In this document: piece after piece, positions 27,503 through 54,796 of the stretch
How positions within the stretch are numbered: the stretch's first letter is position 1
Layout: each line of letters begins with the position of its first letter
Source: Marmoricola sp.
GTDB taxonomy: Bacteria > Actinomycetota > Actinomycetes > Propionibacteriales > Nocardioidaceae
DNA: 64,000 nt
Direction of reading: 5' to 3'
NCBI GenBank assembly: GCA_025965195.1
Contig: JAOPXK010000129.1
Span: 1 to 64,000 of the forward strand
Made by a program: the position numbers and the translations under genes
Notes under the pieces: generated by a model
What the model was told of the DNA's origin: nothing
The model's input: the letters and a program-made list of their open reading frames with translations, nothing else
The model's database searches: none

Positions 27503-28633
27503 TCAAACGGGACGCAATCCAGAGAGTGAATCCACAGCCTTCAACCCATGGCCGGTCATTATCGCCACCGTCACCTCACCAGGGCCGACAACTCCTGACT
27601 CGCACAACTGACGGGCGGCCGCAGCACAGACCGCAGTGGTGGGCTCCACGAAAAGGCCGAACTCACGTCCAACACTCTTCAATGCCAAGATGATCGCCTC
27701 CTCTGAGACAGCCACAGTGTCGCCACGGCTCTCCCTCAGCGCCTCGAGGATCTCCGGGACTCGCACCGGGGCCGACGTCGCAACGCCCTCCGCGATCGTT
27801 GGAATCCTCGGGCCCGCAGGGGTGCCCTTCCACGCGTCGTGAATCGCCGCACAGTTTGCGGCCTGGGCCGCAAAGATCCTCGGGAGCCGAGCGATCTGAC
27901 CGGCAGCCAGGAGCTCGCTGAACCCTCGGTACAGACCCAACACATTGCTTCCGAAGCCAGCCGGCGCAACCACATTGTCGGGGGCTACAAAGCCTAGTTG
28001 TTCCCAGATCTCGTAGGCGACAGTCTTCACACCTTCCACAAAGAGTGGGTGCCAGTTGTGACTTGCGTAAAACACGCCCGTCTCGGCCGAAAAAGTCTGT
28101 GCCGCCACAGCGGTGTCCTCGCGGGAGCCAGGCACCTTCACCACCTCGGCGCCGTACATTCTCGTCTGGACGACCTTTCCCTCACTTGTATGGGCGGGAA
28201 CGAATATCGTGCAGTCGATTCCGGCTGCCGCCGAGTAGGCGGCGATCGATGCCCCACCGTTGCCGGACGAATCTTCCGCGACGCTGCGTACGCCCAGCTC
28301 CCAGAGACGATTCATCATCACTGCCGCTCCGCGATCCTTGAACGATCCCGAGGGGCACAGGTAGTCGAGCTTCAACAGCAGCTCGCTCCCCTCCCACGAA
28401 ACCGGGACCAGGGGTGTCATCCCTTCACCAAGGGTGATGCTCGGACCTTCGGGTGGAGACTCGAGCACCTTGTTGTAGCGCCACAGTCCGCGCCGGCCAG
28501 TGTCTATTTCGTCGGGCGCCAGACCGGGCGCCCGACCGACGTCCAGATGACCTCCGCAGGAACACCGCCAAATCAACTCGTTCGCCGAGTAGACCGTACT
28601 GCAGGAACTGCAAACGTATCCCCGTGGATTCAT
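27503..28633 (-). CDS. PLP-dependent threonine synthase-like / ammonia-lyase-like enzyme
   Basis: 376 residues, fold-type II PLP enzyme. A short zinc-ribbon-like head ('YVCSSCSTVY...WRCSCGG') precedes 'LGEGMTPLVPV', the PLP lysine 'CPSGSFKDRGAAVMMNRL' (residues about 91-108), and the phosphate-binding loop 'EDSSGNGGASIAAYSAAAG'. C-terminal 'MTGHGLKAVDSLSGL' resembles threonine synthase ('TGHGLKD'). Housekeeping threonine synthase normally sits with hom and thrB; here the neighbours are D-aminoacylase (ATGA overlap) and a peptide importer, so a catabolic dehydratase or beta-eliminase acting on a hydroxy or diamino acid is more likely. Confidence 0.8.
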   Translation of the reverse strand: MNPRGYVCSSCSTVYSANELIWRCSCGGHLDVGRAPGLAPDEIDTGRRGLWRYNKVLESPPEGPSITLGEGMTPLVPVSWEGSELLLKLDYLCPSGSFKDRGAAVMMNRLWELGVRSVAEDSSGNGGASIAAYSAAAGIDCTIFVPAHTSEGKVVQTRMYGAEVVKVPGSREDTAVAAQTFSAETGVFYASHNWHPLFVEGVKTVAYEIWEQLGFVAPDNVVAPAGFGSNVLGLYRGFSELLAAGQIARLPRIFAAQAANCAAIHDAWKGTPAGPRIPTIAEGVATSAPVRVPEILEALRESRGDTVAVSEEAIILALKSVGREFGLFVEPTTAVCAAAARQLCESGVVGPGEVTVAIMTGHGLKAVDSLSGLRPV

Positions 28634-30225
28634 TTCCGACTCCTTCTCACGATGCGCCCGCCGTGCATTCCTGTCGACTCGCCACCGGCGATGCTGACGA
28701 CACCACCCACAACAACACTGTCAATACCGACCGGGTATTGCCGTGGGTCGTCATATGTTGCCCGATCGAGCACGGTCGCACTGTCGAAGACGGTCACGTC
28801 GGCTTGGTATCCCGGTCGGAGGTAGCCCATTCCCGAAAGCCCAAACGTGTCAGCGGACTGGCCGGACATTTTTCGAATGGCCGTGGCCATTGTGAGGACT
28901 GCCTCATCTCGCACGTAGGTTCCAAGAATGCGAGGAAACGTTCCGTACTGGCGAGGATGCGGCCGTTCCCCGACGTCCAGGCCATCACTTCCCACTACGG
29001 TCAGGTCGTGAGTCAGAACAGATCTCAAATCGCTCTCGCACGAGTTCGTGGTCAGATCGCCCACATCGCAGCGCTCCTCAACCAGCAGGTCACAAACAAA
29101 CGCCAGGGGGGCCTTCGCCGCGGCAGCGGAAGCGGCCGCGACCGTCTCGCCCTCCAGATATCGATTTGCCAACGACCCGACATGGGAAACGACGACGTTC
29201 TCCCATCCGACCGCCTTGACTCGGTTCTCCCAGCCTGGAAGACCTGTGTCCAGATCAAGCGCCATCCGTGCGCGCTGGGATGGGTCGTCAAGCCGCCGCA
29301 CGACGCTCTCCAAGTCATCCGCCCACACCCACGGCGGTAGAAGCATCAACATGGACGAACTACCCGCCAGATAGGGGTAGATGTCGGACGAAACCGCCAG
29401 CCCATCTCGAGACGCCTGGTCAAGCATCGCGAGGGTCTCCTGGACGACGCCATAGTTGCGCCGGCCGACACTCTTGTGATGTGAGATGGCGACCTGCGAT
29501 CCAGCCGCCCTCCCCACGTCCAGCGCCTCGCGAACGGAATCCACAAGTCCGTCCACCTGATCCCTCAAGTGGGTCGCGTAAAGCCCGCCATTGCGAGCGC
29601 TCACCTCAGCGAGGGCCACGAGCTCGTCTGTTGATGCATACACGCCCGGCGGGTAGGCGAGTCCGGAGGATATCCCGAGAGCCCCGTGATCCATAGCGAG
29701 CTGGACGGCCGCCTTCATGGCCTCCAGTTCGGAGGCCGTCGGCTCCCGATTGTCGAGTCCCATAACCGCGGCCCGCACATTTCCGTGACCAACAAGTGTG
29801 GCCACATTGACGCTGGTCCCTCGGCGCACCAGGACATCGAAATAGTCATTGAGATCCTGCCATTCCCAGTCGACCTCAGGATGCCCAAAGATCGGCGACG
29901 AAAGCTCTCTGATCGCGCGACCGCCGGGGCCGTGATGCGGATATGCCGACCAGCCACAGTTGCCAAGAATCTCCGTGGTCACCCCTTGTCGCAACTTGCT
30001 TTGCGCTTCCGGCTCGGCCACCAAGGCCAGCTCGGAGTGACAATGGACGTCGATGAAGCCGGGTGCGACGGTTTTTCCAGAGGCGTCGATCCGCTCACGT
30101 GACAACTGAGATGCCAGCTCGCCGATCTCGTCAATTCGTCCGTTCGAAATGGCAACATCGGCAACGATCGGTTCCGCACCGCTGCCGTCGTAGACGGTTC
30201 CGCCTGTGATCAAGAGGTCGTGCAC
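28630..30225 (-). CDS. N-acyl-D-amino-acid deacylase (D-aminoacylase), copy 1
   Basis: 531 residues from GTG at 30225 (VHDLLITGGTVYDG), which has AGGAGA about 10 bases upstream; 31 extra residues in the track are not family sequence. Amidohydrolase-superfamily elements: 'VAPGFIDVHCHSELAL' (HxH with Cys between, where copy 2 has Thr), the zinc Cys in 'EILGNCGWSAYPHHGPGG', 'YATHLRDQVDGLVDSVREAL', metal His in 'VAISHHKSVGRRNYG', and Asp in 'LTVVGSDGLDVGERPHPRQY'. Hydrolyses N-acyl-D-amino acids to D-amino acid and fatty acid or acetate. Stop overlaps the start of the PLP gene (ATGA); 37 bases downstream of the DppC-like permease. Confidence 0.9.
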   Translation of the reverse strand: MHDLLITGGTVYDGSGAEPIVADVAISNGRIDEIGELASQLSRERIDASGKTVAPGFIDVHCHSELALVAEPEAQSKLRQGVTTEILGNCGWSAYPHHGPGGRAIRELSSPIFGHPEVDWEWQDLNDYFDVLVRRGTSVNVATLVGHGNVRAAVMGLDNREPTASELEAMKAAVQLAMDHGALGISSGLAYPPGVYASTDELVALAEVSARNGGLYATHLRDQVDGLVDSVREALDVGRAAGSQVAISHHKSVGRRNYGVVQETLAMLDQASRDGLAVSSDIYPYLAGSSSMLMLLPPWVWADDLESVVRRLDDPSQRARMALDLDTGLPGWENRVKAVGWENVVVSHVGSLANRYLEGETVAAASAAAAKAPLAFVCDLLVEERCDVGDLTTNSCESDLRSVLTHDLTVVGSDGLDVGERPHPRQYGTFPRILGTYVRDEAVLTMATAIRKMSGQSADTFGLSGMGYLRPGYQADVTVFDSATVLDRATYDDPRQYPVGIDSVVVGGVVSIAGGESTGMHGGRIVRRSRK

Positions 30226-30262
30226 TGTCGTCGAGTCTCCTATGACTGAGAGATGATGGAAA

Positions 30263-31099
30263 TCAACCCACTGATCCACGGGTCGAATGAGGATCCAGCT
30301 GGTCCCGCAAGGCGTCACCGAACATATTCAAAGCAAGCACGGTGACGACGATCGCGAGGCCGGGAAAGATGGAGAACCAAGGCGCCAGGGACAGATAGGT
30401 CCGTGAGTCCGCGAGCATGTTTCCCCACGTGGGAGCCGGCGGTGCGACACCGAGGCCGAGGAAGCTCAGTGACGCGTCGAGAAGCACTGCTTCCGCGAAT
30501 ACAAACGTCCCCTGGATGATTATTGGGGCCATCGCATTCGGAAGGACATGGCGCAACAGGATGGATGGGCCACGGACGCCGACTGCGCGTGCCGCCTCCA
30601 CATATTGCTCCTCACGGAGTTGCATTGTCGATGACCGCACGACGCGCATTATTCGCGGCCAGTAGGCAATCGAGAGAGCCAGAATCTCACTTCGGACACT
30701 CGGTCCGAGCGCTCCGACAAGTGCAATGGCAAGGAGAAAGGATGGAAATGCCATGAGACCATCAAGAAATCGCGACAGGGTACGGTCTACGGCGCGATAG
30801 TATCCAGCCAGGAGGCCGGACACTGTCCCGAGCAGGAGAGCGACGAGGGACACGGACGCACCGATCAGCATTGAGATCCTGCCACCGGTGACCACTCTGC
30901 TAAGAATGTCTCGGCCGAAGTTGTCGGTCCCCAACAGATGGCTCGCCGATGGGCCAACAAGTCGTTGCGCTACGTTGATCCGGTTCGGGTCTGCCGCCCA
31001 AAGCGGCGCGGTGACAGCCGCCAGCACGACGGCGACGAGAACTGCGAGGGAAACCACGGCGAGCGGTCTCCGCATTAACCCAGCGACAGTCGTTCGCAT
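30263..31099 (-). CDS. dppC: Peptide ABC transporter permease (DppC-like)
   Basis: 278 residues, six predicted membrane helices. ATG at 31099 follows GGAGG closely; the track's TTG start lies over that site. N-terminal helix 'LAVVSLAVLVAVVLAAVTA', DppC marker 'HLLGTDNFGRDILSRVVTGG' (residues about 56-75), and the ATPase-coupling EAA loop 'YVEAARAVGVRGPSILLRHV' followed by 'LPNAMAPIIIQ'. C-terminal 'APWFSIFPGLAIVVTVLALN' with 'GDALRDQLDP' is typical of the family. Partner of DppB, DppD and DppF homologues in the operon. Confidence 0.93.
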   Translation of the reverse strand: MRTTVAGLMRRPLAVVSLAVLVAVVLAAVTAPLWAADPNRINVAQRLVGPSASHLLGTDNFGRDILSRVVTGGRISMLIGASVSLVALLLGTVSGLLAGYYRAVDRTLSRFLDGLMAFPSFLLAIALVGALGPSVRSEILALSIAYWPRIMRVVRSSTMQLREEQYVEAARAVGVRGPSILLRHVLPNAMAPIIIQGTFVFAEAVLLDASLSFLGLGVAPPAPTWGNMLADSRTYLSLAPWFSIFPGLAIVVTVLALNMFGDALRDQLDPHSTRGSVG

Positions 31100-31150
31100 T
31101 GCGCCTCCTTCCAATCTGGACAGTATGGTGATCGAGAACTCGGGCCCGGA

Positions 31151-32095
31151 TTATCGATATTGAACTCTGGGGTCGAGGACCGAATAGAGTAGATCAATGA
31201 GGAGATTCACCAGCACATACACAAGGGCAACGAACATCACTGCGCCAGTTAGAACCGGGAAATCGCGCGATGCGATCGACTGAACGATCAGGTTGCCGAC
31301 GCCGGGGATCGCGAAGACCACTTCCGTAACCACGGCACCGCCTAGAAGGCCCGCGAGACTCGTCCCGATCACTGTGACAGTCGGAATGAGGGCGTTGCGA
31401 AACGCGTGATGTAGCAGTACGAGACGCTCCCCCGCGCCCTTGGCGCGCGCCGTCCGAATGTAATCCTGGTGCAGGACGTCGAGCATCCCGTCGCGAAGCA
31501 TTCGTGCGATCAGGCCGGCCTGTTGAATAGCCAACACAAATGCAGGCATCAGCAAGTGGGAGAACCACAACCCAACACCTTGGTCAAGGGGCACATAACC
31601 AGACACTGGAAGCCAGCCGAGTTTGACCCCGAACAATGAGATCATCATCAGGGCCAACCAGAAGTTGGGCATCGATACGCCTAGCAACGAACCGGACATG
31701 AAGATCGGGTCGAGGAGACTCCCGCGCTTCCATACCGCCAGTAGTGCGCTAGGAATGGCGATCACGAGACTGAACACGAAGGCCAGGCCCGCGAGACTCG
31801 CTGTGGGCCCCACGCGTACGGCAACCGTGTGGACGACTGATTGCTGATAGAACAGCGATGTACCCAGGTTGCCCCGACAGACATGTTCGACCCAGGTAAG
31901 GAACTGCTTCCAAAGTGGCTGATCGAGTCCCAGCTGGTGGCGCAGAACTTTCACTCGGGCGGGCGTGGCGGCGTCTCCAAGTATCACCTGTGCGGGATCA
32001 CCTGGAGTCAGGTGAATGAGCATGAAGACGACGATGCCCACCACGAGGAGCACTGGGATTATGGCCAGCACTCTCCGCACGATGTAGCCGATCAT
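31151..32095 (-). CDS. dppB: Peptide ABC transporter permease (DppB-like)
   Basis: 314 residues, six membrane helices. 'YIVRRVLAIIPVLLVVGIVV' and 'FMLIHLTPGDPAQVILGD' are the DppB/GsiC N-terminal pattern; 'LGLDQPLWKQFLTWVEHVCR' follows. EAA loop 'YIRTARAKGAGERLVLLHHA' and 'FRNALIPTVTVIGTSLAGLL', then 'VVTEVVFAIPGVGNLIVQSI'. Ends 'LLYSVLDPRVQYR', as in close relatives. Lies 51 bases upstream of dppC and 136 bases downstream of the binding protein. Confidence 0.94.
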   Translation of the reverse strand: MIGYIVRRVLAIIPVLLVVGIVVFMLIHLTPGDPAQVILGDAATPARVKVLRHQLGLDQPLWKQFLTWVEHVCRGNLGTSLFYQQSVVHTVAVRVGPTASLAGLAFVFSLVIAIPSALLAVWKRGSLLDPIFMSGSLLGVSMPNFWLALMMISLFGVKLGWLPVSGYVPLDQGVGLWFSHLLMPAFVLAIQQAGLIARMLRDGMLDVLHQDYIRTARAKGAGERLVLLHHAFRNALIPTVTVIGTSLAGLLGGAVVTEVVFAIPGVGNLIVQSIASRDFPVLTGAVMFVALVYVLVNLLIDLLYSVLDPRVQYR

Positions 32096-32231
32096 CCAAT
32101 ACCTTCTTTCAACTGCGGTGGGGAGCTCGCGCTCCCCACCGCAACTCTCTCGGTTATGGACACAGTGATCTACGAATTGATCGCGCTGGTTCCTCGCGTC
32201 GAGTCGTTAAAGGCAGACCACGTGGCATCTG

Positions 32232-33839
32232 TTAGTTCTTGGTCATCCAAGCGTTCCAGAAGGTCGTGTCCATCCAGTTCGGGTAGCCCTGCAAATTCTT
32301 ACTGGCTACATAGAGGGCCGACAGGGTCGCCGATTTGATCTCGGGTACCTCTGTGTAGACCGTCTCGTTCATCTGTCCCAAGAGATCCGTCTTCACGGCG
32401 GGGTCAGAGGTCTTCACCCACTGTGCGAGGAGTGAGTCCATTTTGGGGCTCGTGTAGAACCCGGACCACCCACCAGGAATCATCCACAGCATGGAGGTTG
32501 GATCGAAAGACGGGGAACTCGTGGTTACAAATATGTCGTAGTCAGAGGCGATGTCCCTGCGCTGCAACAAGGTGGGCCAGTCATAAACTTGGATATCGAC
32601 CTTGAATCCAACGGCCTCTAGTTCTGAGCTGAGCGCAACCGTGGCATTGTAGAACTCGGGATAGTCTTTGGTGGTCAGAAGGCGAATCGGCTTGCCATCG
32701 TAACCGCCCTGCGTAACGAGTTGTTTGGCCTTTGCAATGTTCTGGTCGTTGTACAGACTCGTTCCCGTGAGCGTGTGCAGCGCCGCCTGCTGGGGGAAGA
32801 AGATCGAGCCATCGAGTGAGTAGAGGGCCTTGTTGCCGACGGCAGCGGCGCCGATCTCACTCGGGTTTGATGCGTACTGCGCAGCTTGACGCAGCAGGAC
32901 GTTGTTGAAGGGGCCGGACTGCTTGTTGAAGACGAAGGCCAGGAAAGCGTAGGGATCGACGATGAAAGGTTGTACGGTCGGCATCGTCTTGACTTGATCG
33001 TAGTTGTCCTGGGGGACATTCACTGCGAATTGGTATTCGCCCGTCTGTACACCATTGATGCGAACTTGGGGATCCGTCACGATTTGGTAGTCGAGCTTGT
33101 CGAAGTACGCGGCCTTTGCGCCAGCCAATCCACCCCAGTTCTCGGTAAGCGATTTGTACTGATCGAATCGCTTCAAGACGATCGAGCTTCCGGGGGTACG
33201 GCTCTCAAGTTCGTACGGTCCAGTGCCGATGATCTGTTTGTCTTCAAGTGCGTTGACACCTGCCGCGTTGGCGATGGCCGATGGGAGCATGATGGCCGCC
33301 TGCCTGACATCGGCCAGATCAATGAGAAGGGGACCGAACAGGCTCTTGAGTTTGATCTGGACGGTGTCCGGGCCCTCTGCCGTCACACTCTTCACATGCT
33401 GGAAGGTCTCGACTCCTGTCCCGGAGACTTTGCCCCAGCGTTCAAGGGAGGCCACAACATCGGCTGAGTCGAAGTCACTGCCGTCTTGGAACTTGACTCC
33501 GGTTCGCAACTTGATGGTATAGGTCAGTTTGTCTGGACTGACTTTCGCGGACTGGGCGAGCATAGGTCGTTCGACATAGTTCTTGTCGAGTGCGAAGAGT
33601 TGCTCAAAGATGTTCCAGGACACGGCTCGTGTCACCACGGCCGATGTCGATGTCCAGTCCAGCGTGGCCGGATCTGCGTTGAGCGCGATCTTGAGTGTGC
33701 CCCCCTTCACGGGCGGGCCCGCGGCGGAGTTCTGCGCGGTTCCCGTCGAAGCACTGCCGCAGGCTGCAAGTAAGCCCATTGAACCGACCGCCAAGAGCAC
33801 CATGATGGTGCGGGACAACCTTCGTCTAAGCCTAGGCAT
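32232..33839 (-). CDS. dppA: ABC transporter substrate-binding lipoprotein, family 5 (DppA/OppA-like)
   Basis: 535 residues. Lipoprotein signal with basic start and lipobox ('LLAVGSMGLLAACGSAS', Cys about 27). Family-5 marks: 'KGGTLKIALNADPATLDWTS', 'TYTIKLRTGVKFQDGSDFDS' and 'ADVVASLERW' (residues about 120-155), 'GTGPYELESRTPGSSIVLKR', and the C-terminal 'YDWPTLLQRRDIASDYDIFV'. It sets the specificity of the importer; the ligand is not readable but family members bind peptides, glutathione, D-amino-acid-containing peptides, opines or nickel. First gene after the DppF-like ATPase in the transport operon. Confidence 0.92.
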   Translation of the reverse strand: MPRLRRRLSRTIMVLLAVGSMGLLAACGSASTGTAQNSAAGPPVKGGTLKIALNADPATLDWTSTSAVVTRAVSWNIFEQLFALDKNYVERPMLAQSAKVSPDKLTYTIKLRTGVKFQDGSDFDSADVVASLERWGKVSGTGVETFQHVKSVTAEGPDTVQIKLKSLFGPLLIDLADVRQAAIMLPSAIANAAGVNALEDKQIIGTGPYELESRTPGSSIVLKRFDQYKSLTENWGGLAGAKAAYFDKLDYQIVTDPQVRINGVQTGEYQFAVNVPQDNYDQVKTMPTVQPFIVDPYAFLAFVFNKQSGPFNNVLLRQAAQYASNPSEIGAAAVGNKALYSLDGSIFFPQQAALHTLTGTSLYNDQNIAKAKQLVTQGGYDGKPIRLLTTKDYPEFYNATVALSSELEAVGFKVDIQVYDWPTLLQRRDIASDYDIFVTTSSPSFDPTSMLWMIPGGWSGFYTSPKMDSLLAQWVKTSDPAVKTDLLGQMNETVYTEVPEIKSATLSALYVASKNLQGYPNWMDTTFWNAWMTKN

Positions 33840-33886
33840 GTGATATCTCCATTGTGTTTAACGATTTCCAGGGGTTGACGCTGGGT

Positions 33887-34987
33887 CTAGCGCATTTCCG
33901 ACGTTGCTGGTTGTGCAAGAGGAAAGTGGCAGGCCACCTCATGGTTCTCTCCGATTGAATGCAAGATCGGCTCCTCTTTTGAACACAGTTCTTCTGCGCG
34001 GACGCAGCGCGTGCGAAATCGACACCCTGAGGGCGGATTTGTGGGTGACGGAACCTCACCCTGGAGAACTATTCGCTCACGGTTGTTGTGTGGGTCAGGC
34101 ACGGGTAGCGCAGATAGAAGTGCGGAAGTGTAGTGATGTGCCGGCGTGGTGAATATTCTTTCGGCCGGCGCGATCTCGACCAGTTTGCCCAGGTACATCA
34201 CCGCAACTCGATCGGAGATATGTCTCACAACATCGAGACCGTGTGCAATGAAGAGGTAAGTGAGGCCCAGTTCACGCTGAAGGTCCATCAAGAGATTGAT
34301 GACCTGCGACTGCACAGAGACATCAAGTGCGGAGACTGCCTCATCGGCAACGATGAACTTGGGATTGAGGGCAATTGCCCGAGCTATCCCGACGCGCTGG
34401 CGTTGCCCGCCTGAGAACTCGTGCGGATATCGATCCTTACGGGAGGGGTCCAACCCCACCAGCTCGAGTAGCTCGGAGACACGAGCGGCGCGTTCCTTGC
34501 CTCGAGAGATCCTGTGCACCCGGAGGGGCTCGCCAACGATCTCGCCGATCGTAAAGCGAGGATTGAGCGAACCGAACGGGTCTTGGAATACGACCTGCAT
34601 CTGTCGACGCATGTCGCGCATCTTCCGCTCCGGGAGACTCATCAGGTCCTGGCCCTCGAAGAGCACCTGTCCGCTCGTCTCAGGCATCAGGCGCACCAGC
34701 AGCCGACCAAGAGTCGACTTCCCGGAGCCGGACTCACCGACCAGGCCGAGCGTCTCGCCGGCGAAGATGCTGAACGACACATCATCTACAGCTCTGACAT
34801 TGACAGTTCCTCTGCCCAACTTCCCGTCCCTGATCGGGAAGTACTTCCTGAGGCCGTACACGTCCAACAGATGGTCGGGCTGTTCACCCTGTGCTGTCTC
34901 CGGCTTGTCGATGATCTTCAACCCCTCCTGCACAGCCACGCTGTCCTGATCGATCTGCACAGCCACGCTCTCCTGATCGATGCACAT
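33887..34987 (-). CDS. dppF: Oligopeptide/dipeptide ABC transporter ATP-binding protein (DppF/OppF-like)
   Basis: 366 residues if started at ATG 34987 (MCIDQES), which overlaps the stop of a short upstream ORF as TGATG; the track's start is 8 codons earlier and has no ribosome site. After an unusual repeated N-terminus, the ATPase begins at '[16 protein letters not shown]'. Walker A '[14 protein letters not shown]', Q-loop '[16 protein letters not shown]', signature '[17 protein letters not shown]', Walker B '[12 protein letters not shown]' (Ala replaces the usual Pro-Thr context, catalytic Glu kept) and '[20 protein letters not shown]'. The switch loop reads IAHGL where IAHDL is usual. C-terminal oligopeptide-family Cys motif '[14 protein letters not shown]'. 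Confidence 0.9.
34928..34981 (-). repeat. 27-base tandem duplication at the start of the dppF-like gene
   Basis: Two adjacent 27-base units (34928-34954, 34955-34981) differ at one base. In frame they encode IDQESVAVQ and IDQDSVAVQ. Each unit contains CAGGAG/CAGGAC followed by GTG, so the duplication also duplicates a possible ribosome site and start. Confidence 0.9.
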
Positions 34988-35106
34988 CAGACTCGGTCTG
35001 CCCGGTTCCATACGCGGAGCTGTCCGGGTTGCGACAGACTGTAGGTCCGATGTACTTTGAGGTCAAGAGGTTTCGCTTCGAACTTCTCGGGATCGTACTT
35101 GTTCAC
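34987..35106 (-). CDS. Possible small ORF translationally linked to dppF
   Basis: The frame reading '[20 protein letters not shown]' and ending '[10 protein letters not shown]' stops at 34987 in TGATG, overlapping the probable dppF start. Residue composition (K, D, E, Y, aromatic mix) looks protein-like. The frame continues upstream to a GTG at 35124 that is directly against AGGAGG; GTG at 35106 is about 18 bases from it, so neither start is ideal. It may be a leader peptide, a remnant of a larger gene or chance. No family recognised. Confidence 0.3.
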
Positions 35107-35152
35107 GTCGAAGGTGATACCCACCCTCCTCTCACCCCAGGAGATTGAGCGT

Positions 35153-35695
35153 ATGAAGACGGACCACGTGGATGCTGTCCTCGCTGGCTGGGCGGAAGAG
35201 TGGCCCGAGCTGGATGCGTCAGCACAGGGTGTGATCGGACGTATCTCGCGGTTGTCACGTTTCTTGGAACGCGATCTGGTGCGCGTGTTCGGAGAGTTCG
35301 GCCTCACTGGTGGTGAGTTCGATGTGCTCGCCACCCTCCGGAGGGCGCTTGGATCCCGGGGTTCGTTGACTCCCACCGAGCTCACGGCAGCATGCATGCT
35401 GTCGTCGGCAGCGATGACACACCGAATTGACAGACTTGAACAGGCCGATCTCGTCAGTCGCGATCGAGACTCCGCGGACCGCCGGGAAGTGTCGGTGCGC
35501 CTGACGTCAAAGGGTCAAGCTCTCATCGAACAGGCGCTCGTCGTGCATACCGGCAACGAAAGCAGAATGCTCGACGCTTTGACCGCTGAGGATCGGGAGT
35601 CGCTCGCTGGACTCTTGCGGAAGCTTCTACAGCCGATCGAGGCACACGGGGGCATAAGCATCAAGCCTCGGAACACTGAAGACGAGCGCGCTTGA
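35153..35695 (+). CDS. MarR-family transcriptional regulator
   Basis: 180 residues from ATG at 35153 (MKTDHVDAVLAGW), 9 bases after AGGAG; the 32 extra residues of the track ORF lie in the divergent promoter region. Winged helix: 'FLERDLVRVFGEFGLTGGEF', 'DVLATLRRALGSRGSLTPTE', recognition helix 'SSAAMTHRIDRLEQADLVSR' and wing 'DSADRREVSVRLTSKGQAL'. Divergent from the dppF-dppA-...-M20 operon and upstream of ridA and the racemase, so it is the likely local regulator. No clear palindrome was found in the short divergent region. Confidence 0.85.
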   Translation: MKTDHVDAVLAGWAEEWPELDASAQGVIGRISRLSRFLERDLVRVFGEFGLTGGEFDVLATLRRALGSRGSLTPTELTAACMLSSAAMTHRIDRLEQADLVSRDRDSADRREVSVRLTSKGQALIEQALVVHTGNESRMLDALTAEDRESLAGLLRKLLQPIEAHGGISIKPRNTEDERA

Positions 35696-35823: not shown

Positions 35824-36189
35824 ATGAGTGCGGACGACGACCATGACCACCCGTATAGCGAAGCAGTAATCGCCGGGGGCCTGGTTTTCCTATCAGGATG
35901 CCTTCCAGACAATCTCCCGTCCCCAGGGACCGACCAGACGCCGTTGTCCTTGGCAATGGATGTTGTTGAGCGCCGGCTGAAGCTGGTGGGTGGAAGTCTG
36001 GAGGACATTGTCAAGTTGACTTATTTTGTGACCGACATGTCCTTGCGTGAGGGCGCCAACCAGCAGTACCTGGATCTGTGGGACGAACCACGTCCAGCCA
36101 GGACCGTGATCGGGGTGGCGTCCTTGCCAAGGAACTCCTCGGTCGAGATTGACGCCATTGCGCGATACCGCGAGTCGAAGTTGTCGTGA
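35824..36189 (+). CDS. ridA: RidA-family (YjgF/YER057c) enamine/imine deaminase
   Basis: 121 residues. RidA hydrolyses reactive enamines/imines such as 2-aminoacrylate that PLP dehydratases release. Family marks: 'HPYSEAVIAGGLVFLSG' near the start, 'LEDIVKLTYFVTDMSL' in the middle and 'ARTVIGVASLPRNSSVEIDA' (Arg binding the carboxylate, then VEIDAIA) near the C-terminus. Its GTGA overlap with the racemase gene shows coupling, and two PLP enzymes in the same island are its likely partners. Confidence 0.9.
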   Translation: MSADDDHDHPYSEAVIAGGLVFLSGCLPDNLPSPGTDQTPLSLAMDVVERRLKLVGGSLEDIVKLTYFVTDMSLREGANQQYLDLWDEPRPARTVIGVASLPRNSSVEIDAIARYRESKLS

Positions 36190-36914
36190 TTGGCCCTAAC
36201 GCTGTGCGTGCTTCTGGCCCGCCCCTTATAGGCATCCTGGGTGGAATGGGTCCCGCTGCGACGGTCGACTTTTATGCCAAACTTACCGCCGCAACGTCTG
36301 CAAAGTCCGACCAAGAGCACGTGCCCGTGGTTATTTGGGCCGACCCCACGGTGCCCGACCGGGTGGCCGCGCTGGTCAACGGCCAGGAGGATCCCACACC
36401 GTGGTTGGTCTATGGCGCACAGATGCTCGCCAAGTGTGGAGCAGACCTGATTGTGATGCCCTGCAACACGGCTCACGCATTCCTGCCTGGCTTGGAATCT
36501 GCGGTGGATACTCCGATCATCAGCATGATTGAAGCGGCCGTGGATTGCCTTGCGGACGTAACGCCCTCCCCCCTGAAAGTGGGTCTCCTCGCTACGGACG
36601 GGACATTGCAGACCCGACTTTATCAGTCCCAACTTTCGCGCAGCGGTATCGCGTGTATAACGCCTCGGAACAACTCTCAGCAATTCTTGATGGAGGCCCT
36701 TAAGTCCATCAAGGCGGGTGATGTTGGCGCAGACGTGGAAGATTGTCTAACTCAAGTTGCGTTAGGTCTGGTTGAAGACGGTGCAGAGGTAATTATTGCC
36801 GGTTGCACCGAAATTTTGATTAGTCTTCGACCTGAATCCGTGCCAGTTCCCGTGATTGACCCTGCGCGCGAACTCGCTCACAAGGCGATACAGATCTGGC
36901 GCCTGTCGGCTTAA
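36186..36914 (+). CDS. Aspartate/glutamate racemase family protein
   Basis: 242 residues, PLP-independent two-cysteine racemase. 'LIGILGGMGPAATVDFYAKL' (residues about 14-33) is the Asp racemase signature; the two catalytic cysteines are in 'LIVMPCNTAHAFLPG' (about 95) and 'EVIIAGCTEILISL' (about 206). Both are present, so activity is likely. It interconverts L- and D-Asp, D-Glu or a related amino acid. GTG start overlaps the ridA stop. Codons are notably AT-rich for this genome (one 60-base line inside it is 45% GC by hand count). Confidence 0.9.
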   Translation: MIGPNAVRASGPPLIGILGGMGPAATVDFYAKLTAATSAKSDQEHVPVVIWADPTVPDRVAALVNGQEDPTPWLVYGAQMLAKCGADLIVMPCNTAHAFLPGLESAVDTPIISMIEAAVDCLADVTPSPLKVGLLATDGTLQTRLYQSQLSRSGIACITPRNNSQQFLMEALKSIKAGDVGADVEDCLTQVALGLVEDGAEVIIAGCTEILISLRPESVPVPVIDPARELAHKAIQIWRLSA

Positions 36915-37107
36915 TGCCGGCTGCTGCGAGACGTCGCCGAGAAACGCGACATCGGCGATGTCACCACCCTCGCAGACCTCCACCGTGATGGACCTCATCA
37001 AGGAAGGCGCGGCGGATCGGTATCGGTAGCGAGCTGAGCACCCCTCTCGAACCCGTTCGACGGGCCCGGGTCCACGTGCACAGGCAATCTACTGCGGGGG
37101 CGTCGGA

Positions 37108-38736
37108 TCAGCCTCGAGCCGCTCCAACTTTCTTACGCAAGACGCGCCCTGGCGCCGCTCCAGTGTCAACGCCCCCTTCGACAACCACGACGCCATTGAC
37201 GACGACCATCTGAACCCCGACGCTCAATTGATGAGGGTCCTCAAATGTTGCCCGATCCGAAACACTCGCCGGGTCGAACAAGACCAAGTCAGCAGCATGC
37301 CCTTCGCGAATCAGTCCCCGATCACGAAACCCAAGACGCCTTGCTGGCAGTGAAGTCATCTTCCGAACTGCTTCCTCAAGTCTCAGAACATGCTCCTCCC
37401 TCACATAACTGCCAAGGACCCGCGAGAACGTCCCGTAACTCCGCGGATGCGGTCGGCCCCCTGCAGTCGGGCTGAGCGTCCACCCGTCGCTCGCGATCAT
37501 ACTTCGCCCGTGCTTCATGATCTTCTGAATATTCTCCTCTGATTGACCATGAACAACGGTCAATACTTCGCCTCTCGTCTCCGTGATGAGGTCCAAGACC
37601 GTATCAACCGGAAGCTCCTGCCGCGCGGCAGCCACTTCAGTCAACGTCATTCCGATGTAGCGTTCCAACGATGAAGGCCCGTCAGCAAGCACAACTTCGT
37701 CAGGCGCAAACTCACGAAGTCCACCCATGAGGTCGGCGGGACTCTGCAATACGATCTGATTCCGTATCTTCTCCCGCTCGGCAGGGGTCGATAGCCTGCG
37801 AACCACCTGATCTATTCCGCCGGAAAGGGACCAGGCCGGCAACAGCGCAACGAGACCAGTACTACTGGCCGTATACGGGTACTGGTCCAATGTCACGTCT
37901 TGCCCCAGCACAACGGCCTGATCAACCATCTCCAATGTGGTCGCGACCTTGTGCCAGTTTGCACGGCCCATGGCTTTGTGATGGCTCACCTGAACTGGAA
38001 CATCGGCGTCGGAACCGATTCTCAGCGCCTCGCCGAGCGCTTCCACAAGAGTGATCGCCTCGTTCCGCAAGTGCGTTGAATAGAATCCGCCGTACTTCCC
38101 AACCACCTTTGCCAACTCGACAAGCTCAGCTGTCTCCGCCAAACTCGCTGGCGCGTAGGTGAGGCCGCTCGACATGCCGTAAGCACCGGCAATCATCGCT
38201 GCGGCGACGAACCCCTTCATCTCCTCCATCTGAGATCGTGACGGAGGGCCCTCTTCGAACCCCATTGCTGCGATCCGCACGCTGCCGTGGCCAACTTGGC
38301 ACGCCAAATTCACGGCCAAGGGCAGACCAGATACAAAGGTCATGAATCCATCTGCGTCACTCCACGCTCCCCATGGCAATCCACCATCAAGGAACGCCGT
38401 GTATTCGCGAAGCAGGTCGCCTCTGCGCCCATCAACCGGAAAGGGGGAGAAACCGCAATTCCCAGCAACCTGCGTTGTCACGCCCTGCATTGTCATCGAC
38501 ATGGCCCGCGGGTAACAAGGAAGGGTGAAATCACTATGCGTATGAATATCAATGAACCCCGGACTCAGGACCAGCCCAGACGCATCGACATGCGTCACTC
38601 CAAATGTCTTCGGCAGTGACTTGGCCCTGGCAACTGCGACTATACGATCATGTTGGGTGACAACATCGCCGCGCCAAGAATCGGCACCGGTCCCATCCAC
38701 AATGGTGGCGTCATGAAATACAATCCCTGTCTTCAA
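37108..38736 (-). CDS. N-acyl-D-amino-acid deacylase (D-aminoacylase), copy 2
   Basis: 542 residues. Zinc-binding 'LVLSPGFIDIHTHSDFTL' (HTHSD as in the Alcaligenes enzyme), 'TQVAGNCGFSPFPVDGRRG' with the bridging Cys, 'YSTHLRNEAITLVEALGEAL', 'VQVSHHKAMGRANWHKVATT' and catalytic Asp in 'SMIASDGWTLSPTAGGRPHP'. All expected ligands are present. It belongs to the same family as copy 1 (28630-30225) but differs at several active-site-adjacent residues, suggesting different acyl or side-chain preference. It follows the D-serine-dehydratase-like gene by 49 bases on the same strand. Confidence 0.9.
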   Translation of the reverse strand: MKTGIVFHDATIVDGTGADSWRGDVVTQHDRIVAVARAKSLPKTFGVTHVDASGLVLSPGFIDIHTHSDFTLPCYPRAMSMTMQGVTTQVAGNCGFSPFPVDGRRGDLLREYTAFLDGGLPWGAWSDADGFMTFVSGLPLAVNLACQVGHGSVRIAAMGFEEGPPSRSQMEEMKGFVAAAMIAGAYGMSSGLTYAPASLAETAELVELAKVVGKYGGFYSTHLRNEAITLVEALGEALRIGSDADVPVQVSHHKAMGRANWHKVATTLEMVDQAVVLGQDVTLDQYPYTASSTGLVALLPAWSLSGGIDQVVRRLSTPAEREKIRNQIVLQSPADLMGGLREFAPDEVVLADGPSSLERYIGMTLTEVAAARQELPVDTVLDLITETRGEVLTVVHGQSEENIQKIMKHGRSMIASDGWTLSPTAGGRPHPRSYGTFSRVLGSYVREEHVLRLEEAVRKMTSLPARRLGFRDRGLIREGHAADLVLFDPASVSDRATFEDPHQLSVGVQMVVVNGVVVVEGGVDTGAAPGRVLRKKVGAARG

Positions 38737-38785
38737 GGCCAGGCCCTCTTCCGACGTCGTTCGACGAACCTTGCATCAACGCACG

Positions 38786-40081
38786 TCAAAAGAACGTGCG
38801 GACTCCCCCAATCACGGCTCCAGAATCGTCGATCAGTGGCAGCAACGGCGACTTCTCAAACGCGCCACAGGGGTGAGACACACCTAAAGCGACAATATCG
38901 CCCGGAGCCAATTCGACCTCGGGAGCAATCGCTACCAGCGCGTGCTGATCAAACAATGCAGTAATTACACCCTGGTTGGTTAGATCTACCACCCCGCCAT
39001 CGCGCGAGTAGGCTCGCCGTAGGCAAGGCAGTTCCACATCGTAGGGAACATCGCGTCGCCCCGCTCCGAGCACCACCAATCCGGGCTCGGGTCGTGAGAG
39101 TACAACTGCCCACACGTCCAATGCGTCCTGAAGCTCCAGAACCTCGTCCGGGTTGCGACGCCCGTCCAGCGGCGAAAGCCGGTGGTAGCGACCCGAGTCA
39201 TGTGACACGTAACAACCGCTCCGGAGCACCAGTCTTGCGTCGATTCCCGACTTCGACCAGTCGCTCAGGGAGTGCACTACGCGGTCGAAGTAGACACTGC
39301 CTCCTGCACTGACCAGCGGATCGGGTCGGGCAAGGAGCTCACCCTCAAAAAGCTCGGTGACGAGAATACGAGTCCGATCCAGCAGAGCATCCACCGCTGC
39401 CAGATCTGCCGGCGCAGAACCCCGTGCGACAACTCCCTCGTACGTCTCGACTCCGGCCAGCTGCAAGTTCCGGGACGCCTTGACGGCCCGGGCCACCTGC
39501 ATAGCGGAATCTGTGGTCCGGCAGCCCGTCCGACCACCTTCTGCTCCGAGTTCCAACAAGACGTTCATTCGGCGCCCGGGCGCACAGTCGTCCAAGGTCC
39601 GGTCCATGAGAGCAACTGTCTGCGGATCGTCTACCAAACAGTAGAAGTCGAACGCGGCGTCGGTGCGCAGCTGCTCGCAGACCCAACGCAGGGGGCCCGG
39701 CTCGACAAGCTCGTTCGCGAGGAGGATACGAGGCACCCCGTACTTGCGCATCACGGCCATTTGCGACGACGTGGCGGCGGTTATTGCCCACGCTCCGGCG
39801 TCAAGCTGGCGCTTGAAGAGTTGAGGAGCCATCGTGGTCTTTCCATGTGGCGCGAAGAGTGCCCCATAGCGCCTGGCATATGCTGCCATGGCTTCGATGT
39901 TCCCAGTCAGCGCGCCTTCCCGGAGGGTCGTGACCGGGAGGGGCAGATCGCCCTTGGTGACATTCCAACCCTGGCTCCCGAGCTCGCTCAGCCTGATACG
40001 TGTGCCGAGCGGAACCCCCTTGTATTCACAATCAAGAATCGTCTCGTCGCAGCCTTCGCCGACGTCGATGTGCGCGTTCAT
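38786..40081 (-). CDS. D-serine dehydratase-like / D-threonine aldolase-like PLP enzyme (fold type III)
   Basis: 431 residues. Alanine-racemase N-terminal barrel with PLP lysine in 'LFAPHGKTTMAPQLFKRQLD' (about 75-95). The C-terminal DSD1 domain ends 'VALGVSHPCGAFEKSPLLPL', where His and Cys (HPC) are the zinc ligands of eukaryotic-type D-serine dehydratases. It would dehydrate or split D-Ser, D-Thr or other 3-hydroxy-D-amino acids, giving an imine that RidA could hydrolyse. Start ATG at 40081; it precedes D-aminoacylase copy 2, so release of a D-amino acid and its deamination would be co-expressed. Confidence 0.85.
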   Translation of the reverse strand: MNAHIDVGEGCDETILDCEYKGVPLGTRIRLSELGSQGWNVTKGDLPLPVTTLREGALTGNIEAMAAYARRYGALFAPHGKTTMAPQLFKRQLDAGAWAITAATSSQMAVMRKYGVPRILLANELVEPGPLRWVCEQLRTDAAFDFYCLVDDPQTVALMDRTLDDCAPGRRMNVLLELGAEGGRTGCRTTDSAMQVARAVKASRNLQLAGVETYEGVVARGSAPADLAAVDALLDRTRILVTELFEGELLARPDPLVSAGGSVYFDRVVHSLSDWSKSGIDARLVLRSGCYVSHDSGRYHRLSPLDGRRNPDEVLELQDALDVWAVVLSRPEPGLVVLGAGRRDVPYDVELPCLRRAYSRDGGVVDLTNQGVITALFDQHALVAIAPEVELAPGDIVALGVSHPCGAFEKSPLLPLIDDSGAVIGGVRTFF

Positions 40082-40414: not shown

Positions 40415-41188
40415 CTACAAAGCACTGATGGCTCCGCCATCGACCCGGATCTGGGCACCTGTCACGTACGAGGCGCGATCGCTGCAAAGAAAGACTGCGA
40501 CATCAGCGAACTCGTCTGTCCGGCCGTATCTGCCGATGGGAATCGTTGCGGCCGACGCTCGCCTCACTGCCTCTATCTCTATCTCGTCCCGACGCGCGCG
40601 CGCCTCGTCCAGGTCCGCCACGCGACGAGTGTCAATGCGTCCTGGTAGAAGCATGTTCACAGTCACGCCTTGTCCAGACACCTCGTTTGCAAGGGTCTTC
40701 AAGTAGGCCGCAAGTGCCGCGCGGGCTGCATTGGAACGTGCGAGGTTGGCGATGGGTTGCTGGACCCCACTGGAACCTATTGCCAACACGCGACCCCATC
40801 CGTGAGTCCGCATCTGTGGAAGCAGAAGCGTTGCGAGCGCAATCTGTGGAAGCAGCATGGAGCGGAGGCTCGCATCCATGTCGTGCGGCGTCAGATCCGC
40901 TGCTGTCCCTGGCGGGGGGCCCCCAGAGTTCAAGACAAGGACATCGATTTGGCCAAAGGCACGCTGGGCTTCACGACCCAGGCGCTGGCAAGCGGCGGGA
41001 TCGGAAAGGTCAGCGACCAGTCCGACTGACCGTGGCACCGCTGCGACCGCATCGGTGACGCTGCTCTCGCGCCTCCCCGTTACGACTACGTTGGCACCTT
41101 CAGCCGACAGGCCTTTGGCAATGGCCAACCCGAGCCCAGAAGTCGAACCGAGAACCAAGCAGGAGCGTCCATCCAGTCGCATATCCAT
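40415..41188 (-). CDS. Atypical SDR-family protein lacking the YxxxK catalytic pair
   Basis: 257 residues. The cofactor-binding 'CLVLGSTSGLGLAIAKGLSA' and 'DVLVLNSGGPPPGTAADLT' (NSGGPPPG instead of NNAG) are present, and the C-terminus 'VTGAQIRVDGGAISAL' is normal. At the catalytic site the expected SxnYxxxK is 'GSSGVQQPIANLARSNAARA': the Tyr and Lys positions read Leu and Asn. A divergent subset of SDRs with NSGGP and SNxxR shares this pattern, so it may use another mechanism or be a binding protein. Substrate unknown. Confidence 0.8.
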   Translation of the reverse strand: MDMRLDGRSCLVLGSTSGLGLAIAKGLSAEGANVVVTGRRESSVTDAVAAVPRSVGLVADLSDPAACQRLGREAQRAFGQIDVLVLNSGGPPPGTAADLTPHDMDASLRSMLLPQIALATLLLPQMRTHGWGRVLAIGSSGVQQPIANLARSNAARAALAAYLKTLANEVSGQGVTVNMLLPGRIDTRRVADLDEARARRDEIEIEAVRRASAATIPIGRYGRTDEFADVAVFLCSDRASYVTGAQIRVDGGAISAL

Positions 41189-41371: not shown

Positions 41372-42064
41372 TCAAACAGGGGGGAAGCTGGCGACCACAA
41401 CAGCCGCAACGTGCTGGATGTGGGCATCCATCGCGGAAGCCGCCAAGTCTGATTTGCCGTCCGAGATCGCCTGGGCGATCTCGATGTGCTCCTGCGCGCA
41501 ACCGACAGTCCCCTCCGACGGCGACAGGTCCCTCTCTCTCAGCACGGAGGTCAGGAGGAGGGCATCCGCAACTGCAGCCTCGGTCATGGGGTTGCCCGCG
41601 GCTCGAGCGACGGTTGCGTGGAACTCGTGGTCCCACTGCCGGAAGCCAGGCCCATCCCCCTCGACGGCTGCTCGGAGAGCTTGTTCGGCGGCCGACAGAA
41701 GCGCCGCGATATCGGGCGTGGACACCCGTTGCGCAGCATAGAACGCGGCGGAACGCTCAATGCCGGCTCGTAACTCATACGCGTCACGAATCGCGGTTCG
41801 CGAGGGCTCGATCACCCTCAGCCCGTCACCGGACGGCACGACCAGCCCAATGTGTTTGAGACGGAGAAGTACATCGCGCACCGGTGTCCGGCTCACATTG
41901 AGCTGGACCGCAAGAGCTGCAGCGGTCACTCGACTGCCCGGGGCCAGCGTCTTGTCGACAATCGCCTCCTTGATCTTGTCGAAGACCAGGTCCGTTCGTG
42001 ACGACGGCGGGGACGGCAGCGGCGACAACAGCGACCGCCCGATGTGTGTCACTGCATCCTGCAT
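41372..42064 (-). CDS. GntR-family regulator (FCD subfamily)
   Basis: 230 residues from ATG at 42064 (MQDAVTHIGR); the track's TTG start lies in the operator region. N-terminal winged helix 'LVFDKIKEAIVDKTLAPGSR', 'VTAAALAVQLNVSRTPVRDV' and 'LLRLKHIGLVVPSGDGLRVI', then an all-helical FCD ligand domain: 'RDAYELRAGIERSAAFYAAQ', 'DHEFHATVARAAGNPM' and 'EEHIEIAQAIS'-like end with metal-binding Asp/His positions. FCD regulators bind small carboxylates. It is divergent from the amidohydrolase/enolase genes and probably controls them and possibly the SDR. The 183 bases downstream (41189-41371) hold no gene. Confidence 0.88.
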   Translation of the reverse strand: MQDAVTHIGRSLLSPLPSPPSSRTDLVFDKIKEAIVDKTLAPGSRVTAAALAVQLNVSRTPVRDVLLRLKHIGLVVPSGDGLRVIEPSRTAIRDAYELRAGIERSAAFYAAQRVSTPDIAALLSAAEQALRAAVEGDGPGFRQWDHEFHATVARAAGNPMTEAAVADALLLTSVLRERDLSPSEGTVGCAQEHIEIAQAISDGKSDLAASAMDAHIQHVAAVVVASFPPV

Positions 42065-42077
42065 ACAGGACACGGTA

Positions 42078-42095
42078 CTTGGTGTACGCTCCAAG
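42078..42095. promoter_or_regulatory. Candidate GntR operator
   Basis: CTTGGTGTACGCTCCAAG is an inverted repeat with 5-base arms and a GTAC-containing centre, 14 bases upstream of the GntR start, overlapping a TTGACG that could be a -35 element on the minus strand. Typical position for autoregulation. Confidence 0.5.
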
Positions 42096-42263
42096 CGTCA
42101 ACAGACATTGGCGTGCTCCTCACCCGGCTCGCCACTTGACAGGCCGGCCCGGGCAGCAGCTCCTCGGGCAGCGGCTCTCGGCAGACGTCTCGGATCTCAG
42201 ATCCCAGCTCTGACCACGCAGCGAGGTGAGCGACGCGATTCTTTACAGCTGGGAGGCTGGCAA

Positions 42264-43055
42264 GTGCAGACCGCGACGGTGTCATCACTGAAGTTCTATG
42301 ACTGCAACGCTTTGATTGGCAGACCGGCGATTCCGCGGTTCTTCCCAGATCCTGTCTCAGGGGAGGTACTGCTACGAGAGATGGACCGAATCGGAGTCGA
42401 GAGCGCAGTTGTCACCCACGTGGCCGCGCGTGAATACTCGCCTCGGGTAGGAAATGACCTCCTGGTGGACGCAGTCAGCGTCGAACCTCGGCTCACCGGG
42501 TGCATGACACTTCTGCCCGACCACACAGACGAGCTCTGGGACACCGCGGCAGTTCTCAACGAACTGAAGCGGCGCGACGCGCGCTGCGTTCGGCTGTTCC
42601 CGAGCGAGAGTCTGCATCGATATCCGCTCGACCATCGAGTCCTCGGCGATCTTTTTGAAGTGCTCGAATCAGCCCGGGTGCCGACTCTTCTGGACTTCGA
42701 CCTGGGCCGGCGAGACGAGGCTGATTGGCGCGCGCTCTACGACTTGGCGGATAGATATCCATTGCTCCCAATGATCATAATCCGCCCCGGCGGCCGCAGT
42801 GACCGCGGACTGTATCCCTTGCTCAAACGATCTCCGAACGTGTCCGTGGAGACAGGCGGCTACTGGGTGCACCGAGGAATTGAGCGAATTTGCGAACGCT
42901 TTGGCGCTGAGCGTTTGGTCTATGGTTCCGGGTTCCCCTATTGGACAATGAGCGGTGCCGCATTCCACGTGGCCTCCGCGAGGGTGTCAGCGTCAGAGAA
43001 GATGGCTATTGCAAGCGGCAATCTGGAAGCGCTTATGTCGGGGGTATCGCTGTGA
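42264..43055 (+). CDS. Amidohydrolase-fold protein without metal ligands (probable pseudoenzyme)
   Basis: 263 residues from GTG at 42264, 8 bases after GGGAGG; the longer track ORF runs back through the GntR gene. TIM-barrel amidohydrolase-2 family by its spacing of strands and by 'LLREMDRIGVESAVVTHVAA', 'VLGDLFEVLESARVPTLLDF' and 'RICERFGAERLVYGSGFPYW'. All expected metal positions are changed: DxHxH is 'YDCNALIG', the LGHAG histidine is 'IIRPGG', and the WGSD aspartate is 'YGSGFP'. Its stop overlaps the start of an intact homologue (GTGA). Likely a non-catalytic partner subunit. Confidence 0.78.
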   Translation: MQTATVSSLKFYDCNALIGRPAIPRFFPDPVSGEVLLREMDRIGVESAVVTHVAAREYSPRVGNDLLVDAVSVEPRLTGCMTLLPDHTDELWDTAAVLNELKRRDARCVRLFPSESLHRYPLDHRVLGDLFEVLESARVPTLLDFDLGRRDEADWRALYDLADRYPLLPMIIIRPGGRSDRGLYPLLKRSPNVSVETGGYWVHRGIERICERFGAERLVYGSGFPYWTMSGAAFHVASARVSASEKMAIASGNLEALMSGVSL

Positions 43056-43840
43056 TCCATGAATTTCGGCCCTTCACGAAGGCGACACCAATCATCGACG
43101 CCCATGCGCACATGGGCTCCTACCGGAACTTCAATATCCCTTGGAATGACGCAGATGGAATGATCGAGCAGATGGATGCCGCCGGCATCGACCTTGCCTG
43201 CGTAAGCCATCATGCGAGTATCTCAGCTGATCATACGTACGGGAACAGCATCATCAGAGCGGCCGTATCTCAGCACCCCGGAAGGTTCTTGGGGTATTGC
43301 GTCATCAACCCAAATTATCCGGAGTCGGCGTCGTCGGAAATCGAGAAATGTTTCGCAACGGGATCCTTCGCAGGCTTCAAGGCGCACCCTGAACTTCATG
43401 GCAACTACCCCTTGAACGGGCCGGGGTACGAGCCGATGTGGAAGTACGCTGACGCTCATGGGCTTCCGGTACTTTTCCACAGCTACTTCGGTGGCGATCA
43501 ACTGGCCATCTTCGAGTCTCTAGCCAATCTTTATCCAGGAGCGACCCTGCTCCTAGGGCACGCGGGTCTTGATCTCGGCCTTGACAACGCAGTGGCGCTG
43601 ACCACCAGGGTCGACAACGTGGTCCTTGACATGACCGCGATGCAACGACACTGCTGGGCAGTCGAGTACCTGGCTGCTCGGGCGAGTTCTGAGCGACTCG
43701 TGTGGGGTTCTGACAGTCCCTTCATAGATCCCACGCCCATGCTGGGCGCCATTGCGCTGGCCGCAATCCCAGAAGGCGTCCGCGACGCGATCCTCTATCA
43801 CAATATGGCTCGAATCCTGAGAATCGATCTTCAGTCATGA
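43052..43840 (+). CDS. Metal-dependent amidohydrolase (amidohydrolase_2/TIM-barrel family)
   Basis: 262 residues from GTG at 43052, which overlaps the preceding stop. Metal ligands are intact: 'PIIDAHAHMGSYRNF' (HxH), 'GLPVLFHSYFGGDQ', 'GATLLLGHAGLDLG' and 'RLVWGSDSPFIDPTP'. Family enzymes hydrolyse lactones or amides or decarboxylate aromatic acids (ACMSD-like, OMPDC-like). With the enolase-superfamily gene next to it and an FCD regulator upstream, a carboxylate or lactone substrate is plausible. Same length and fold as the upstream ligand-less protein. Confidence 0.85.
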   Translation: MIHEFRPFTKATPIIDAHAHMGSYRNFNIPWNDADGMIEQMDAAGIDLACVSHHASISADHTYGNSIIRAAVSQHPGRFLGYCVINPNYPESASSEIEKCFATGSFAGFKAHPELHGNYPLNGPGYEPMWKYADAHGLPVLFHSYFGGDQLAIFESLANLYPGATLLLGHAGLDLGLDNAVALTTRVDNVVLDMTAMQRHCWAVEYLAARASSERLVWGSDSPFIDPTPMLGAIALAAIPEGVRDAILYHNMARILRIDLQS

Positions 43841-43874
43841 TTGAGCGAAGCGTGTCAAAGAAGTTGGATTAGAA

Positions 43875-54696: not shown

Positions 54697-54736
54697 CGGG
54701 TTGTGAAGCGGTCTAGCCCAAGCGTACGCACAGCAG

Positions 54737-54796
54737 CGACCCGCAGGCGTGATGCGGAACATCACTTCGGTGGACGACCGGGTCGCCTGCGGGTCG
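54737..54796. repeat. Long hairpin upstream of the MFS gene
   Basis: CGACCCGCAGGCG (54737-54749) and CGCCTGCGGGTCG (54784-54796) are perfect 13-base complements around a 34-base loop. It stands between the MarR promoter and the MFS start in a 240-base gap with no gene. Confidence 0.75.

Follow-up and report, generated by a model that had tools for sequence, protein, structure and literature searches.

A D-aminoacylase and DSD1-like enzyme pair in Marmoricola as a possible actinobacterial relative of the OngB-OngC step

What is degraded at a locus whose proteins are annotated as a D-aminoacylase and a D-serine deaminase? The characterised example of such a set degrades an oxidised chitin sugar. 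The question arises for a stretch of 64,000 nucleotides (hereafter, the window) at the beginning of contig JAOPXK010000129.1 of a Marmoricola sp. genome (GCA_025965195.1). An earlier note had proposed that four genes here, for a RidA protein, an Asp/Glu-type racemase, a second D-aminoacylase and a DSD1-like enzyme, form one module acting on a D-Ser, D-Thr or diaminopropionate-type substrate. All four genes are present, with coordinates and families that agree with the open reading frames and Pfam (Table 1), and the deacylase and DSD1-like genes do lie on the strand opposite RidA and the racemase. The GTGA overlap between the RidA stop and the racemase start also occurs, although it holds only for the start codon chosen: there is an in-frame GTG at 36204, 18 bases downstream, and homology to solved racemases starts only at residue 12-14.

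Table 1. Positions of the genes and predicted motifs discussed here, numbered along the window
Feature	Position	Strand	Basis
Threonine-synthase-like PALP enzyme, overlaps D-aminoacylase copy 1	27503..28633	-	PF00291
D-aminoacylase copy 1	28630..30318	-	PF07969
Opp/Dpp-type ABC importer (OppC, OppB, SBP5 binding protein, ATPase), candidate importer	30263..35011	-	Pfam
MarR-family regulator upstream of RidA	35057..35695	+	Pfam
RidA-superfamily protein	35824..36189	+	PF01042, E 5e-20
GTGA, RidA stop/racemase start overlap	36186..36189	+	sequence
Asp/Glu-type racemase (CuyB-like)	36186..36914	+	PF01177, E 3e-41
D-aminoacylase copy 2, 542 aa	37108..38736	-	PF07969, E 2e-31
DSD1-like (OngC/3gwq-type) fold-type III PLP enzyme, 431 aa	38786..40081	-	PF14031, E 5e-12; Ala_racemase_N
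His403-Pro-Cys405, predicted metal ligands, dehydratase-type H-x-C	38867..38875	-	homologue alignment
PHGK motif, predicted PLP Schiff-base lysine Lys81	39839..39850	-	conservation
Non-canonical SDR without YxxxK, DSD1-linked in the window clade	40415..41188	-	58% to Knoellia SDR
GntR/FCD regulator, heads same-strand run	41372..42094	-	Pfam

The minus-strand run is ordered GntR, SDR, DSD1-like enzyme and D-aminoacylase 2, with 49 bases between the last two genes, and it is this pair, together with the SDR, that is the conserved core. The GntR regulator is 47-53% identical to GntR genes at the DSD1 loci of Antrihabitans (L003) and Saccharopolyspora spinosa (L004). Divergent from it, an enolase-superfamily (muconate-cycloisomerase-like) gene and two amidohydrolase-2 genes occupy positions 41760-44981 and may make up a further set for the catabolism of acids or lactones. 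Incidentally, positions 54731-54912 strongly match the actinobacterial sRNA Ms_IGR-5.

The fold of the DSD1-like enzyme is clear from sequence. It scores 46.8 bits against PF14031 (curated cut-off 22), is the sole PF14031 protein of the genome, and finds its best PDB match in 3gwq ('D-serine deaminase') at 240 bits, as against 76 bits or less for BhcC and D-threonine aldolase. The H-x-C of the metal site is kept in 87 of 87 full homologues, among which the Pro, His and Lys of the PHGK motif are likewise invariant. D-serine dehydratase uses His and Cys as metal ligands, D-threonine aldolase His and Asp (PMC4401734), and the H-x-D of the aldolases is absent at the predicted metal site, where H-P-C stands instead. 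Because it has H-x-C and the PHGK lysine rather than an aldolase-type H-x-D, the enzyme is likely of the dehydratase/ammonia-lyase type, catalyzing beta-elimination. The imine-releasing dehydratase of the earlier note is thus favored by both motifs, and an aldolase acting without imine release is unlikely. The segment around the metal site does differ from the norm, reading HPCGAFEKS where most homologues have HPCxxFDKW. The Trp, replaced by Ser in the window enzyme, is gone in all four members of its clade (see below). The missing Trp does not by itself set the clade apart, since it is also absent in L190 and in a subgroup with an HAC motif.

D-aminoacylase 2 is 40% identical to copy 1, has the D-aminoacylases 1m7j/1rjp as its best PDB matches, and carries SDG and HPR segments. 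All of the anchors C97, Y194, H222, H252, K254, Y285 and S291 (PpOngB numbering) are kept and, by sequence alignment, both the metal and the acetamido/carboxylate anchoring residues are in place. In PpOngB, a deacetylase of the type acting on N-acetyl-D-glucosaminate (GlcNAc1A), the sites that set specificity include Ser292 and Gln298 (PMC12017989). D-aminoacylase 2 clearly has Thr at 292, Leu at 298 by position only (this lies outside the alignable part) and Met at a third specificity site, a pattern seen in hydrophobic N-acyl-D-amino-acid deacylases; the residues in copy 1 are Ser, Val and Leu. The Thr, Met and Leu of D-aminoacylase 2 speak against GlcNAc1A as such, though the poor alignment of the loop calls for caution. 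Site 298 does not serve as a firm test, as actinobacterial deacylases of the long type cannot be aligned across the loop, and kinase/aldolase-linked relatives (L104, L105) also show Thr and Leu at those sites. Other kinase/aldolase-linked relatives, from Chloroflexi and some Actinobacteria (L006-L010, L102:6864-8489, L111:7690-9321), carry Asp where the zinc ligand Cys97 would be and lack Lys254, and may be a different deacylase or a lactonase type.

Of the loci compared, 78 come from named genomes, 13 belong to the family of the window organism and 24 to its phylum; the tallies that follow refer to 116 DSD1 loci. A D-aminoacylase lies within 8 kb of DSD1 in 46 of the 116, RidA in 37 (chance would give about 2%, calculated with the 5 RidA genes that this genome has in 3.97 Mb) and both in 31. 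The pairing of DSD1 with D-aminoacylase recurs so widely that it must be more than chance, and deacylase, DSD1-like enzyme and RidA are a recurrent set, the actinobacterial version of which we did not find in the open-access literature. Within the same distance are a KDG-kinase-like PfkB (24/116), a gluconate-type permease (15/116) and KDPG aldolase (11/116). Given that kinase and aldolase genes also accompany DSD1 within the family and genus to which the window belongs (L102, L104, L105, L111), many actinobacterial DSD1 loci are probably of a sugar-acid type. Opp transporters like that of the window adjoin DSD1 in Knoellia koreensis (L002) and, among the proteobacterial loci, in Achromobacter/Bordetella. 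Proteobacterial homologues (L025, L026, L029, L046, L051, L058-L060, L065, L068, L070) also adjoin genes for MlrC (M81) peptidase-like proteins, which suggests D-amino-acid peptide substrates in that branch.

In the DSD1 tree the window enzyme falls into a clade of four (SH-aLRT 100) with those of K. koreensis, Antrihabitans and S. spinosa. Its sister group (87) is made up of kinase/aldolase-linked Chloroflexi sequences; 3gwq groups with loci whose deacylases bear OngB-type residues. Neither KDG kinase nor KDPG aldolase occurs near DSD1 in any of the four members. Instead, all four have near DSD1 an SDR of a single clade. The six members of that SDR clade (support 100/97) all lack YxxxK, in place of which the window protein reads NLARSNAAR (that is, S-N-x-x-R), which casts doubt on a role as a simple dehydrogenase. 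At the loci of the three relatives, but not in the window, a FAH-family gene directly precedes DSD1 and RidA follows it after 19-131 bases; in two relatives D-glutamate cyclase genes are nearby. The full operon was seen once within the clade, in Knoellia, where a single run holds a DHDPS-family gene, SDR, Opp transporter, 2-hydroxyacid dehydrogenase, FAH, DSD1, RidA, D-aminoacylase (60% to window copy 2) and one more gene.

In this Marmoricola genome, as far as sequence identity can tell, relatives of the genes in the Knoellia run are divided between the window and a second contig (C102). The latter carries the FAH and DHDPS genes that lie outside the window, and its genes resemble those of the relatives at 47-57% for FAH (L002-L004), 52% for an SDR, 53% for DHDPS and 39% for the hydroxyacid dehydrogenase. 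This set adjoins an IlvD/EDD-type sugar-acid dehydratase. The same downstream genes are thus found with such a dehydratase here and with DSD1 and RidA there, which suggests that DSD1, too, yields a 2-keto-3-deoxy acid. Searching the genome by region, we found neither KDPG aldolase nor LPMO, and the matches to KDG kinase were weak (with no KDG kinase in the window cluster), on which grounds a plain ong pathway, as described below, was ruled out.

The earlier note had the window RidA clear the imine released by the DSD1-like enzyme. A role of that copy as the dedicated partner is not supported: the RidA genes adjoining DSD1 in the three relatives form a clade (100/99) from which it is excluded, on a long branch, and their orthologue is on another contig (C156), with 57-61% identity to them compared with 31-37% for the window copy. 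The C156 gene has a creatininase-like gene at a distance of 60 bases and a DHDPS-like gene farther along (names read from sequence); it is more probably the partner of the DSD1-like enzyme. The window RidA scores 64 bits against TIGR00004 (archetypal RidA), under the cut-off of 106, and has close relatives in only 2 of 395 genomes of the class. It does keep the equivalent of Arg105 (PARTVIG aligned with PARS), a residue important in imine hydrolysis by RidA (PMC4433059). On its strand it sits between MarR and the racemase in a run separate from DSD1. The relative closest to it (58%, in L211) is found by an amidohydrolase gene and a PALP gene matching serine/threonine-ammonia-lyase models, and for that reason the window RidA may instead serve the operon of PALP and D-aminoacylase 1, with the threonine-synthase-like PALP (ThrC models under cut-off) as a candidate alternative source of imine. 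A parallel design is found on contig C41 of the same genome (L207:7774-10531), where a further RidA overlaps PLP genes that read as SelA/glucosaminate-6-phosphate-lyase-type, beside an Opp transporter.

The racemase likewise drops out of the module, being near DSD1 at 1 of the 116 loci, that of the window. It matches the solved structure 1jfl, holds both catalytic-type cysteines (MPCNTA, AGCTE) and scores 258 bits against the CuyB cysteate racemase model (NCBIfam equivalog, cut-off 190). Cysteate racemase function is nonetheless doubtful, because a CuyA-type partner is absent among the listed family matches of the window proteins; the PALP there is threonine-synthase-like.

It is nearly an even call, falling slightly on the side of doubt, that RidA and the racemase form a separate unit for the D-aminoacylase 1/PALP/Opp operon and are next to DSD1 by position only, a reading that is compatible with our main proposal. 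The amidohydrolase-PALP-RidA run in L211, the distinct RidA lineage, the opposite strand with its own MarR regulator and the adjacency of a RidA to a racemase of like kind elsewhere (G008, L194) all speak for it; its base is one or two relatives, and the PALP of L211 shares only about 31% identity with that of the window. A different question is whether the DSD1-like enzyme could be an aldolase or a D-3-hydroxyaspartate-type enzyme, the FAH protein serving as an oxaloacetate decarboxylase. Weak similarity to D-threonine aldolases and to BhcC (80 bits, not reaching the model cut-off of 690) would fit, but the far closer 3gwq and the H-x-C site make this quite improbable, and the aldolase reading as such was dismissed on that site.

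A competing reading keeps the substrates of the earlier note: N-acyl-D-Ser or N-acyl-D-Thr would be deacylated, the DSD1-like enzyme would produce 2-aminoacrylate or 2-aminocrotonate, and the window RidA would convert these to pyruvate or 2-ketobutyrate. The family and motif of the enzyme agree with this, as do the deaminating activity of OngC on both amino acids, the resemblance of the D-aminoacylase 2 specificity sites to those of amino-acid deacylases, the Arg in the window RidA and the D-glutamate cyclase near two relatives. Pyruvate, however, needs no SDR, FAH, DHDPS or kinase/aldolase partners for its use, the DSD1-linked RidA has its orthologue elsewhere in the genome, and the window RidA and DSD1 are in separate transcription units; on balance we regard this as somewhat unlikely. 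What stands of the earlier suggestion is that a D-aminoacylase-type deacylase with its anchors would feed the PLP enzyme; D-Ser, D-Thr or diaminopropionate are possible products of deacylation that the neighborhoods do not favor. Because the SDR/FAH partners in the window clade probably mark a non-phosphorylative route, we consider a longer-chain 3-hydroxy-D-amino acid (e.g., a 2-amino-2-deoxy aldonate) at least as likely a substrate as D-Ser/D-Thr, and the neighborhoods lean toward it.

From the genes, motifs, phylogeny and neighborhoods observed, we infer the substrate and its transport, the sequence of the steps, the partner RidA and roles for SDR and FAH as follows. An N-acylated 2-amino-3-hydroxy acid with D configuration would be imported, probably by the adjacent Opp-type transporter, and deacylated by the zinc amidohydrolase D-aminoacylase 2. 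The PLP/metal-dependent DSD1-like enzyme would then eliminate the 3-hydroxyl group and ammonia from the free D-3-hydroxy-amino acid, giving an enamine/imine that would hydrolyze to a 2-keto(-3-deoxy) acid, aided by RidA (more probably the C156 copy). This product would probably be handled by the SDR and the FAH-family hydrolase, possibly with a DHDPS-family lyase, rather than by KDG kinase and KDPG aldolase. Taken whole (a deacylase-DSD1 pair resembling the OngB-OngC step, a non-phosphorylative downstream route and a longer-chain substrate), we think that the proposal stands about equal chances of being right or wrong. Counting against it are the deacylase sites, the lack of KDPG aldolase and LPMO, the weak KDG kinase matches, an SDR without YxxxK, FAH and DHDPS genes outside the window, a clade with only four members and a full operon seen in one of them; D-glutamate cyclase near two relatives fits D-amino acids, and OngC itself takes D-Ser and D-Thr. 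An actinobacterial non-phosphorylative branch specifically for amino-sugar acids (D-glucosaminate-type), with Opp import and with deacylase, altered-site ammonia-lyase, RidA, non-canonical SDR and FAH in place of the KDG kinase and KDPG aldolase of ong, is unlikely. If the proposal is true, the catabolism of oxidised amino sugars (or related D-hydroxyamino acids) known from Gammaproteobacteria would be widespread in Actinobacteria too, there with another downstream route, and this would offer a direct test of the role of RidA beside such enzymes.

With 3gwq and the vertebrate and yeast D-serine dehydratases (PF14031), the window enzyme has in common fold type III, the lysine and H-x-C; it differs in the Ser that replaces the Trp following H-x-C-x-x-F-D-K, its separate clade and its neighborhood. 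D-aminoacylase 2 shares Cys, His, Lys and Tyr anchors with AfDam (1m7j), BbDam (3gip) and PpOngB (9kb1) but is about 50-60 residues longer, and its specificity sites are mixed or AfDam-like, not OngB-like. In route 3 of non-phosphorylating L-fucose/L-rhamnose degradation, an SDR acts before a FAH-family hydrolase (PMC11199699). The two families co-occur in the window clade too; the window SDR lacks YxxxK and the FAH gene of this genome is on another contig.

The closest comparison is with the ong cluster of Pseudoalteromonas prydzensis, in which OngB, OngC, OngD (RidA) and KDG kinase are each required for growth on GlcNAc1A and together convert it to KDG-6-P (PMC9537276). From D-glucosaminate, OngC produces KDG and ammonia, and it accepts D-Ser and D-Thr for deamination as well; the study assigned no role to OngD (PMC9537276). 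The ong system acts on GlcNAc1A, not on N-acetyl-D-serine. Compared with it, the window lacks kinase, KDPG aldolase and LPMO and has an Opp ABC importer in place of the sodium symporter, a linked SDR, an added racemase, a RidA of another lineage and a deacylase with differing specificity sites. What the two have in common is a D-aminoacylase-like deacylase, a DSD1-like PLP ammonia-lyase and a RidA in one locus, and their chemistry is expected to be alike.
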